58,244 nt of DNA from positions 1-58,244 of the forward strand of contig JAGWOC010000012.1 in the NCBI GenBank assembly GCA_028872875.1, read 5' to 3'. Source of the DNA: Chloroflexota bacterium. GTDB taxonomy: Bacteria; Chloroflexota; Dehalococcoidia; DSTF01; JACRBR01. The notes beneath the pieces are model-generated. The model made no database searches and was not told where the DNA came from. It saw only the letters and a program-made list of their open reading frames with translations. The position numbers and the translations under genes are program-made. Shown here piece by piece: positions 52,808 through 56,408 of this stretch; the stretch's first letter is position 1, and every line of letters begins with the position of its first letter.

Positions 52808-54457
52808 TCAGCGGACGGTGAGGGCGATGCGCTGGGCGGCGCGCACGACGCCGTCGCTGACGATCAGGGTCAACTGGTACGAGCCGGGCGCCGTCGGCGC
52901 CGTCCATGTCACCGACTCGCCGGTCCTGGTGTCGAGCGTGCCGGCGGCGGCCTCCCAGGCCGGCGTCAGCAGCGCGCCGTTCGGCTTCGTCAGCGTGATC
53001 GAGCCGCTGTCGGCGAGCTGGGCGACCGCGGACCATACGTCACCTCCGCCGCCCGGGGTCGAAGCGTCGCTGATCACCACGCCACCGAGGCCGAAGCGCT
53101 GGGCGAGCGCCAGCCGGAAGGCGGCGCTGAACTCGTTGGCCAGCCAGACGGTGCGCTTGCCTCCCCGCCCGGCGTAGCTGAACGTCACGGCGCGCGCCGC
53201 GTCGTCCCAGTGCATGCCGCTGGCGCCGGCGGACTGCGCGAGGTTCTGGGCCGTCAGCTTCACGCGTGCACCGGGCGCGACGTCGCCGGTGGCGTCCGTT
53301 GTCACCTGGCTCGCGATCGTCAGCGCGTCGGCCAGCGACATCGCCCGCAGGCCGTCGCTGCCGCGCTCGACGCTCAGCGAGCTGATCGGCAGCAGGACCT
53401 TCGACTTGTCGACCTTGCCCGTGATGTAGGTGAGTGCCGCGTCCATGTCCTGGAAGTACAGTTCCTGGTCCAGCTCGCCGACGATCTCGATCGTGTCCGC
53501 GAGCTGCCCGAGCTTCGTCCAGTCGTACGCCCCCGGGTCCATGCTGCCGCCGTGGTTCGATGGCATCGGCAACGTCAGCGTCAGCGTACGGCGGTCGGCG
53601 TGCAGGGCCGTGGCGAGCTGCGAGACGAACTCGGTGAACTCGCTCCTCAGTTGCGGGCTGACCGCCCGGTAGTCGATGGCGATCCCCGGGTAGTTCCCCT
53701 GCTTCACCGCGTTCGCGATCGCCGTCGCGTGCTTCTGGCGCAGGGCCGATGACCGCAGGATCGCGTCGACGACGGCCGGGTCTGGCGCGACGATGCCGGG
53801 GACCACGGCGTAGCCGGCGGGCGGGACAGCGGGCGGCTGTCCGGCGAGCGCGCCATCGGCGGTGGGGATGAAGGTCAGCGGGTGCAGCGTGGTGAGCGCC
53901 GCCGCGGCGGCCGGCGTCACCGTCGTGCCCGCCGGCACGATGCCCGCCACCTGGAGCAGGGACTTCGTGCGGCGGAGCACCGCCACGTTGCCCGGCAGCG
54001 CGCTCACGTCGCCCCGCGCGGCGGAGCCGCCCGCGAGCAGGGTCGCGGGCGAGAGCCGTTGCCACGCGCCCGCGGCGTAGGTGTACAGCGCGAGGTTGTT
54101 CTGGTCGGTCTGCTTGTCCTTCAGGGGCACCGTCAGGCGCGAGGCGCCGCGCTTGTCCGGCGGCGCGGCAAGGTCGAAGAGCGCGCTCGCCGCCACCAGG
54201 CCCGCGGGCAGTTTCGGCATGCCGCTGCGCACGGTCGATGTGTACGTCGCGGCGTTCCCCGGCGCGGACGAGGACGACGCGGGCGTGCCGCTCCCGCCCC
54301 GGCTCAGCACGGAGATCGGCGGCAGCACGAGCACGAGCAGCAGGATGCCCAGCCCGATGATCGTGCCGATGACGTACACGGCCGCACGGTCCGGGGCCGG
54401 CGGGCGCGCCGCCTCGCTGAGGAGCGGATCGAACGGGCCACGCTTGTCGCTTGCCAT
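52808..54457 (-). CDS. Membrane-anchored GH18-like protein with degenerate catalytic motif
   Basis: A 549-residue protein. One N-terminal membrane segment (YVIGTIIGLGILLLVLVLPP, about residues 27-47) is followed by a Ser/Gly-rich tether and an extracellular part with several beta-rich blocks. A barrel region has GNYPGIAIDYRAVSPQLR, where the family expects DGIDIDYE, so the catalytic Glu is replaced by Arg (YR). LTLTLPMP and the WTKLGQLADTIEIVGELD block also resemble spore-germination/GH18 proteins. It ends in an Ig-like domain (TAPGSYQLTLIVSDG). Probably a binding protein rather than an active hydrolase. Confidence 0.6.
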   Translation of the reverse strand: MASDKRGPFDPLLSEAARPPAPDRAAVYVIGTIIGLGILLLVLVLPPISVLSRGGSGTPASSSSAPGNAATYTSTVRSGMPKLPAGLVAASALFDLAAPPDKRGASRLTVPLKDKQTDQNNLALYTYAAGAWQRLSPATLLAGGSAARGDVSALPGNVAVLRRTKSLLQVAGIVPAGTTVTPAAAAALTTLHPLTFIPTADGALAGQPPAVPPAGYAVVPGIVAPDPAVVDAILRSSALRQKHATAIANAVKQGNYPGIAIDYRAVSPQLRSEFTEFVSQLATALHADRRTLTLTLPMPSNHGGSMDPGAYDWTKLGQLADTIEIVGELDQELYFQDMDAALTYITGKVDKSKVLLPISSLSVERGSDGLRAMSLADALTIASQVTTDATGDVAPGARVKLTAQNLAQSAGASGMHWDDAARAVTFSYAGRGGKRTVWLANEFSAAFRLALAQRFGLGGVVISDASTPGGGGDVWSAVAQLADSGSITLTKPNGALLTPAWEAAAGTLDTRTGESVTWTAPTAPGSYQLTLIVSDGVVRAAQRIALTVR

Positions 54458-54510
54458 CAGCAGTCGCGCCCGGCGCGGGCGGCGACGCGTACCTCCAGGT
54501 CCGGATGCGG

Positions 54511-54533
54511 GCGGCTCCGTAGCGGAGAGCCGC
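54511..54533. repeat. GCGGCTC hairpin with CGTAGCG loop
   Basis: Seven-base arms GCGGCTC and GAGCCGC around CGTAGCGGA. It shares the CGTAGCG head of the repeats at 23288 and 28762. It lies upstream of the GH18-like gene, in the divergent gap to greA. Confidence 0.4.
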
Positions 54534-54729
54534 GGAAATGCGGCCGTGTGGCCCGCCCCGCCGGGTGCGTCCGCCCCCCGCCGGGCGCGCGACCCTGGGT
54601 CTCGCGGCCGCACGACACCCGATCTTTCCCGCTCCGGGCCCGTGCGTCAACCCCCGCGCGCTTGCGACGATTCTTGCCTTCACAAGTGTTGCCCGCGATG
54701 CACCCCGTGGCTGGGTGGCGTCACCGTTC

Positions 54730-54759
54730 TTTACAGCCTCGCGTGAGCGCCGGTATACT
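54730..54759 (+). promoter_or_regulatory. Promoter of greA
   Basis: TTTACA and TATACT with an 18-base spacer. The predicted start near 54766 lies about nine bases before the leader terminator. Confidence 0.75.
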
Positions 54760-54774
54760 CGGGGTAGACTGCTG

Positions 54775-54809
54775 ACTGAGGCGACGCGCGTCCCTCAGTT
54801 CTTTTTTTC
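54775..54809 (+). terminator. Intrinsic terminator in the greA leader
   Basis: ACTGAGG pairs with CCTCAGT, extended inward by GAC/GTC after a bulged C, followed by TCTTTTTTTC. This is the cleanest intrinsic terminator seen in the window and it lies between the promoter and the gene. Transcripts stopping here would be only about 40 nt long. Confidence 0.8.
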
Positions 54810-54872
54810 ACATCGAGCAGCCTGGATTCTGCCGGCGCGGCACCGGGACCGGGACCGTCACGGAGGATGCAC

Positions 54873-55346
54873 ATGGTCGAGAAGGCACAACCGCTCACCC
54901 GCGAGGGGCTCCAGAAGATCGAGGAAGAGCTGCGCCATCTGGAGACGGTCCGCCGTCCCGAGGTGGCGGACAAGATCCGTCAGGCGAAGGAGCTCGCCAG
55001 CACGCAGAACAACGCCGAGTACGAGGATGCCAAGAACGAGCAGGCGATGGTCGAGGGGCGCATCCTGCAACTCCAGGCGCTGATCCAGAACGCCGAGCTG
55101 ATCGACGAGGACGGCGCCGCCCACTCGAAGCAGGTGATCCTTGGCAGCCACGTCAAGGTCAAGAGCGACGAGGGTAAGTCCGTCGAGTACATCATCGTCG
55201 GCCCCGCCGAGGCGGACCCGCGCGAGGGCAAGATCAGCAATGAGTCGCCCGTCGGCCGCGCCCTCATTGGCAAGCGTGTGAACGACGAGGTGCAAGTCGC
55301 CGCGCCCAGGGGCATCATCACCTACAAGATCACCAAGATCAGTTAG
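54873..55346 (+). CDS. greA: Transcription elongation factor GreA
   Basis: A 157-residue cleavage factor. The N-terminal coiled coil (REGLQKIEEELRHLE) has the tip KELASTQNNAEYEDAKNEQ with the acidic residues that enter the RNA polymerase secondary channel. The C-terminal domain has VGPAEADPREGKISNESPVGRALIGK. GGAGG lies six bases before ATG 54873; an ATG two codons earlier is less likely. It releases stalled RNA polymerase. Its last three bases overlap the convergent hxlR gene. Confidence 0.97.
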   Translation: MVEKAQPLTREGLQKIEEELRHLETVRRPEVADKIRQAKELASTQNNAEYEDAKNEQAMVEGRILQLQALIQNAELIDEDGAAHSKQVILGSHVKVKSDEGKSVEYIIVGPAEADPREGKISNESPVGRALIGKRVNDEVQVAAPRGIITYKITKIS

Positions 55347-55729
55347 CGCCGGATCGCCGCTGCGCCGGTGTCCGCGGCATGCGGGGTGGCGCCGACCCCG
55401 CCGGGCGGATCGTCGTGCCAGTCGGCTGCCCAGGCGCTAATAGCCACGAACACATCGCTGAGGCTGCGCCCCTTCTCTGTCAGCACGTACTCGATGCGCA
55501 CCGGCGTCTCGGGGATGACGTGGCGCGCGACGAGGCCCTCGGCCTCCAGCTCCTTGAGCCGCTCGGACAGCATGCGGTCGCTGAGGCCCGGAATGGTGTT
55601 CGCGAGCGCGTTGAAGTGACAGACGCCGGCGTGCAGCGCGCGCAAGATTGCCCCATTCCAACGCCGGCCGATGAGTTCGACCGCATGATGGAAGTACGGG
55701 CAGAACGGTTCGGTGTGTGCTCGCTCCAT
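55343..55729 (-). CDS. HxlR-family winged-helix regulator
   Basis: A 128-residue repressor or redox/aldehyde-sensing regulator. CPYFHHAVELIGRRWNGAILRAL, HFNALANTIPGLSDRMLSERLKELEAEGLVAR and IEYVLTEKGRSL are the family blocks. Cys10 is in the position of the HypR redox Cys. It is divergent from yceI and overlaps the greA stop (TAG/TAA sharing two bases). It probably controls yceI. Confidence 0.92.
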   Translation of the reverse strand: MERAHTEPFCPYFHHAVELIGRRWNGAILRALHAGVCHFNALANTIPGLSDRMLSERLKELEAEGLVARHVIPETPVRIEYVLTEKGRSLSDVFVAISAWAADWHDDPPGGVGATPHAADTGAAAIRR

Positions 55730-55767: not shown

Positions 55768-55796
55768 TTGACACCCAAGGCTCACCGAAGTATAGT
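55768..55796 (+). promoter_or_regulatory. Strong sigma-70-type promoter of yceI
   Basis: TTGACA and TATAGT with exactly 17 bases between them, the best match to consensus in the window. Confidence 0.85.
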
Positions 55797-55859: not shown

Positions 55860-56408
55860 ATGACCTCTCCCGCCACCACGACGAGCACCTGGACCATCGA
55901 TGGCGTGCACAGCGTCGTCGAGTTCGCCGCCAAGCACATGATGGTGGCCACCGTGAAGGGGCAGTTCCGGGGCGTCGAGGGCACGCTCAACGTCGACGAG
56001 GCGCACCCTGAGCGCTCGGTGGTGACCGCGACGATCGACACGGCGACCGTCGACACCGGCGTCGAGCAGCGCGACGACCACCTGCGCTCGGACGACTTTT
56101 TCAACGCCGAGAAGTACCCGAAGATCACCTTCCGCAGCACCCGCGTCGAACGGGTGGACGACGAGCGCTGGCGCGTCATCGGGAACCTGACGATCCGCGA
56201 CGTGACGAAGGAAGTCGTCCTCGACACCGAGTACGAGGGCCAGATCAAGGATGCGTTCGGGAAGCAGCGGGCGGCGTTCAATGCGACGACGCAGATCAAC
56301 CGCAAGGAGTTTGGCCTGAATTGGAACGGGGTCATCGAGGCGGGTGGCGTGGTCGTCGGCGACAAGATCAAGATCGAGCTGAACATCGCCGCCGTCCGCA
56401 ACGACTAG
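55860..56408 (+). CDS. YceI-family polyisoprenoid-binding-like protein
   Basis: A 182-residue lipocalin-like barrel. TWTIDGVHSVVEFAAKHMMVATVKGQFRG, TATIDTATVDTGVEQRDDHLRSDDFFNAEKYPKITFRS and the final VVGDKIKIELNIAAV are the full YceI pattern. No signal peptide is seen, so it should be cytoplasmic. It has a strong promoter and is divergent from hxlR, a pair often seen in bacteria. YceI proteins bind long isoprenoid lipids such as quinones. Confidence 0.93.
   Translation: MTSPATTTSTWTIDGVHSVVEFAAKHMMVATVKGQFRGVEGTLNVDEAHPERSVVTATIDTATVDTGVEQRDDHLRSDDFFNAEKYPKITFRSTRVERVDDERWRVIGNLTIRDVTKEVVLDTEYEGQIKDAFGKQRAAFNATTQINRKEFGLNWNGVIEAGGVVVGDKIKIELNIAAVRND

Follow-up and report, generated by a model that had tools for sequence, protein, structure and literature searches.

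Why would a bacterium place a strong terminator between greA and its promoter? The question is raised by a leader in a 58,244-nt stretch of DNA (the window) from the 3.4 Mb genome of a Chloroflexota bacterium of the class Dehalococcoidia. The preferred answer, to which we give a probability of about 0.72, is that the leader acts as an attenuator like GraL of E. coli, and that it would serve mainly to limit how much of a secondary-channel factor is made.

The greA leader of the window

The promoter lies on the forward strand where the original prediction had placed it, at 54730–54759, with the −35 hexamer TTTACA (54730–54735), a spacer of 18 and the −10 hexamer TATACT (54754–54759). It is one of two sigma-70-like sites in 5.2 kb, against 0.6 in shuffles, and among the 54 relatives with a scored promoter TTTACA recurs in 42 and TATAAT or TATACT in 49. 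Judging from the −10 position, transcription is predicted to start at 54766, which leaves a non-conserved 5′ segment of 8 nt (54766–54773) ahead of the hairpin GACTGAGG..CCTCAGTT (54774–54800). This hairpin is supported by sequence, fold and alignments; its inner stem reads GAC-GCGC-GTC, and its stem letters are conserved in the phylum. After the hairpin, TC precedes the T7 tract of the intrinsic terminator (54802–54808); the predicted leader terminator is thus present, with a run of seven Ts rather than the eight claimed. Folding of the predicted 43-nt leader RNA gives a minimum free energy of −15.5 kcal/mol (z −2.4).

Downstream, a Shine-Dalgarno sequence GGAGG (54862–54866) precedes greA (54873–55346, forward strand). 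The ATG at 54873 is the likely start, as the start at 54867 in the ORF list gives no Shine-Dalgarno spacing. The translated product of 157 aa scores above the cut-offs for GreA_GreB_N and GreA_GreB (PF03449 and PF01272) in a Pfam profile search.

A custom scan of both strands found four strong terminators in the 58 kb window, the greA leader hairpin among them; the number expected is 0.005 per 160 nt. A simpler terminator scan did not pick up this hairpin, and an Rfam covariance-model search of the leader gave no hit to the element at E values up to 5. Intergenic terminators are common, and the hairpin might be thought to end the transcript of the upstream gene. However, the upstream ORF is divergent (52808–54613, reverse strand, with an uncertain start at GTG 54613 or an internal ATG), and a scored promoter intervenes, as it does in 54 of the 64 leaders with the motif. 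This reading, whose probability is negligible, was rejected. Since the upstream ORF lies on the opposite strand, a forward-strand terminator would act only on transcripts from greA's own promoter.

Conservation in Dehalococcoidia and Chloroflexia

A survey of 40 relatives found a near-identical hairpin just 5′ of most true stand-alone greA genes. The original prediction had called for such a comparison and would have fallen with a hairpin missing from close relatives; instead, the hairpin is kept in both relatives of the same genus and in three of four of the same family, locus L007 being the one without it. When leaders of the window's family are aligned, conservation is confined to the promoter hexamers, the two arms of the hairpin and the T tract. 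The early relatives had been chosen by motif, so a motif-blind terminator finder was then run on 121 greA leaders of the class. At a score of 30 it passed 79 leaders, compared with 0.3% of dinucleotide shuffles, and the CTGRG/CTCAG stem type occurs in 58 of these 79. About one third of the class leaders fall below the threshold, including L007 of the window's own family, and in family f47 and others promoter and hairpin are retained with altered stems. At the sequence level, the conserved leader terminator is not due to chance.

The stem letters ACTGAG/CTCAGT recur across the class and also in Chloroflexia, where species including Chloroflexus islandicus carry the same hairpin 5′ of a greA whose product is 45–49% identical to the window GreA. 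A covariance model of the element (R2) matched 75 of 294 class genomes. Judged by position and by reading of the flanks, the best matches stand directly 5′ of greA in 65 genomes and 5′ of lysS in two, and the remaining eight are elsewhere and weak. Pairing is retained in 97% of alignment cells, and two-sided changes affect five of the nine hairpin pairs, amounting to 34 cells where shuffles give 6.3, in an alignment that was fitted to the model and has a few antisense duplicates among its rows. The alignment supports the fold, short of proof.

The same data bear on whether the palindrome is instead an operator, bound as DNA by a dimeric repressor at the transcription start. The stem letters are conserved beyond what pairing needs, and the site would lie at about +9 to +35, as such an operator might. 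However, the distance between the half-sites varies freely, from 6 to 21, a T tract follows, and the stem shows compensatory changes. The variable inter-arm length favours an RNA hairpin over a DNA operator, and the operator reading was rejected as very improbable.

Association with greA and with lysS

An exact-pattern scan over all genome contigs gave a sample of matches, of which 91 were read. At least 10 of the matches listed have greA downstream, all of them in Chloroflexota records, and among the 91 no match outside Chloroflexota stands 5′ of greA. The matches listed include ‘Dehalococcoidia bacterium UBA4060’ (DFZI01000080.1) and ‘Chloroflexi bacterium SZUA-185’ (QIFC01000021.1). The pattern ACTGAGRG..CYCTCAGT plus T5 was rejected as a diagnostic mark by itself, since the matches listed show it as an ordinary terminator outside Chloroflexota.

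greA adjoins lysS in 18 of 30 loci, which raises the question of which gene the leader belongs to. Where lysS is not adjacent, as in the window genus and family f4, the leader mostly remains with greA. Leaders of lysS were also read in 30 genomes selected because they had one GreA hit, taken as the fused form, or none, although one of these (G021) has a stand-alone greA elsewhere; three leaders have the hairpin intact, two decayed and one changed. The same hairpin stands directly 5′ of lysS, with no stand-alone greA between, at L195 (5236–5400, genome G555), L340/L349 (G034) and L338/L360 (G264). L195 is a Chloroflexota locus in a genome that gave no greA match at 1e-36. Three genomes carry an intact hairpin before lysS with no stand-alone greA adjacent, so the element can exist without greA, and these exceptions may be recent losses. 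Overall, the sequences suggest that the leader mostly tracks greA. Control of greA-lysS by a T-box or by lysine was considered and rejected, as no such Rfam match occurs at the leader and the leader stays with greA when lysS is non-adjacent.

Leader layout and read-through

The intrinsic terminator lies in the greA 5′ leader, downstream of the promoter, and leaves little sequence in which a switch could form. In 43 of the promoter-bearing leaders the spacer is 17. The distance from the predicted start to the hairpin has a median of about 14 nt (range 0–37) among motif-bearing leaders, and in six leaders the 5′ segment is shorter than 8 nt, too short for an upstream antiterminator. Where the 5′ segment was tested for pairing with each arm of the hairpin, the result did not exceed that of shuffles (median P 0.55), and no competing antiterminator fold was found in these leaders.

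Transcription from a second start would allow greA to escape the terminator. A −10-like site is present before the hairpin in 58 of 64 leaders and between the terminator and the gene in only two, which is rarer than in shuffles (19%). The scarcity of such sites implies that read-through is needed for greA expression, as had been predicted, and at the window locus the sequence has no promoter between terminator and gene.

The short RNA itself might regulate other mRNAs in trans, in the way that GraL acts on nudE. The prediction of a stable short RNA with a U tail fits this, but the 5′ segment and the loop vary even among members of one family and no seed is conserved, and we consider this role highly unlikely. 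Unlike E. coli GraL, the window leader has no conserved candidate for a trans-acting part.

GreA proteins behind the leader

The product of the window greA differs from a cleaving GreA at the coiled-coil tip, which reads ASTQNNAEY rather than the GDLKENAEY of E. coli and carries S and N at the positions equivalent to the acidic residues D41 and E44. This is the rule in the class: neither acid is found in 61 of 76 proteins, a set that includes some close relatives, while two acids occur in seven and the exact D/E pair in one. Control GreAs of other groups have D/E in 114 of 115 cases (Gammaproteobacteria 29/29, Bacteroidota 28/28, Clostridia 29/29, a mixed set 28/29). The stand-alone GreA of the window lineage has thus probably lost RNA cleavage. 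It would be a class-wide protein of the GreA family seemingly without the family's defining activity, of which no description was found in the literature searched. The class also has a second GreA, which carries an N-terminal fusion of about 120–160 extra aa. This fused paralogue has D/E in all 21 genomes read and is present in the window genome.

The original prediction had suggested autoregulation through transcript cleavage or pausing. In the cleavage version, as at E. coli GraL, GreA would increase termination within its own leader. The layout is the same as that of GraL, and the Chloroflexia GreAs behind the same hairpin have D41/E44 in 16 of 16 cases. However, in E. coli autoregulation requires D41, and the D41A protein could not repress (PMC6829880). 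With S/N in the window protein and the acids replaced in most of its class, control by cleavage through the gene's own product is unlikely.

A somewhat better case, though still a minority one, can be made for cross-control, in which the fused paralogue would act on the leader and set the amount of the competing, tip-dead GreA. The D/E pair in every fused paralogue read and the presence of one in the window genome are consistent with this. Against it, Chloroflexia with a catalytic stand-alone GreA have the same hairpin.

Comparison with known systems

The closest known system is the GraL leader of E. coli. As described (Potrykus 2010; Dylewski 2019, PMC6829880), it shares with the window leader a promoter, a short 5′ segment, a hairpin with T tract and expression of greA by read-through, and its hairpin sequence likewise appears to matter. 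In these accounts the 5′ segment is 18 nt, vs 8 nt in the window. The AUG stands at about +150 in E. coli and about +108 in the window, and the hairpin letters differ (GACCTGGG..CCCGGGTC vs GACTGAGG..CCTCAGTT), so there is no sequence homology. The proteins differ too, as the window GreA lacks the cleavage residues that its fused paralogue has. GreA control in E. coli depends on the leader terminator's own sequence and on an as yet unnamed factor (PMC6829880). The expectation of a GraL-like design in a distant phylum is borne out as architecture, the promoter-proximal terminator being arranged as in GraL.

Leader terminators of greA outside E. coli are not new. Comparative genomics predicted premature terminators before greA in Proteobacteria, Bacilli and Clostridia (Naville and Gautheret, 2010, PMC2965389), and together with GraL (PMC6829880) they make this class of leader already known. 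The greA/rnk-leader attenuators of that study share the premature terminator 5′ of greA but were reported with an antiterminator, which GraL does not require and for which the shortest Chloroflexota leaders leave no room; unlike theirs, the Chloroflexota stems keep fixed letters in two classes. What is new is that the stem is fixed throughout the phylum, that no antiterminator is present, that a few genomes retain the element before lysS and that the product appears tip-dead. A literature search for a greA leader terminator in Chloroflexi found nothing on point, and greA is not mentioned in the text of two 3′-end mapping studies, of E. coli and Pseudomonas.

For the protein, the nearest parallels are the non-cleaving Gfh1 of Thermus and Rv3788 of Mycobacterium tuberculosis, secondary-channel factors of GreA fold that, as here, occur beside a cleaving GreA (PMC4598747). 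Gfh1 and Rv3788 retain acidic tip residues, whereas the class GreA mostly has S/G/T and N in their place.

The same terminator finder detected strong terminators in 24 of 29 greA leaders of Bacteroidota, five of 29 of Clostridia and one of 29 of Gammaproteobacteria. A TAnnTTTG-like motif is close by in eight of the 24 terminator-bearing Bacteroidota leaders (5.8% in shuffles), and some of these terminators may belong to upstream genes. A subgroup of the sampled Bacteroidota leaders (L408–L436) has AAGTAAAGTCAGC..GCTGACTTTACTT in common. As to whether the design is convergent or ancient, it is ancient within Chloroflexota, where it spans two classes. Between phyla the hairpin sequences differ, which does not support common descent and makes repeated origin at least as likely.

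A leader that would limit GreA dose

Under the preferred reading, transcription from the strong sigma-70-type promoter would run into an intrinsic terminator after no more than about 45 nt. Much of it would end as a short RNA of about 54766–54808, and greA would be made only by polymerases that read through. What is conserved is the hairpin and not a switching fold, which suggests that read-through would be set by the polymerase and by the factors on it. The leader's main role is most likely to restrict the dose of a secondary-channel factor, and the state of RNA polymerase probably feeds back on expression to some degree. As both tip acids are missing from the product, any such feedback in the window lineage would run via channel occupancy or through the fused GreA that keeps the acids. 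The leader may thus be a dose limiter for a tip-dead factor of GreA type, possibly sensitive to the active paralogue. An overdose of GreA is lethal in E. coli even as the D41A E44Y protein (PMC7527559), so there would be reason to control the amount even of a tip-dead factor.

Simple dose limitation does not explain the fixed stem letters, since any strong hairpin would do. A broader and rather speculative proposal is that promoter-proximal terminators of greA arise repeatedly (in Enterobacteria, Chloroflexota, many Bacteroidota and some Clostridia) and that early termination reads a Gre-dependent state of the polymerase. In Dehalococcoidia the fused GreA would be the sensor and the tip-dead GreA the output, and the fixed stem letters would be what is sensed. 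The GraL layout with an independent sequence, in two classes and in front of cleaving and apparently tip-dead GreAs, offers a natural experiment on whether cleavage or channel occupancy is the signal.

Other loci

Two further features were noted in passing. Among the off-target matches of the covariance model, L330 and L331 have a similar hairpin, GACCGAGAG..CTCTCGGT, with a T run 5′ of thiC; this may be a thiamine leader's expression platform. In the window, a near-consensus promoter TTGACA-17-TATAGT (55768–55796) precedes an ORF at 55860–56408 and is divergent to an ORF on the reverse strand (55343–55729) that, by its translation, resembles an HxlR-like regulator.
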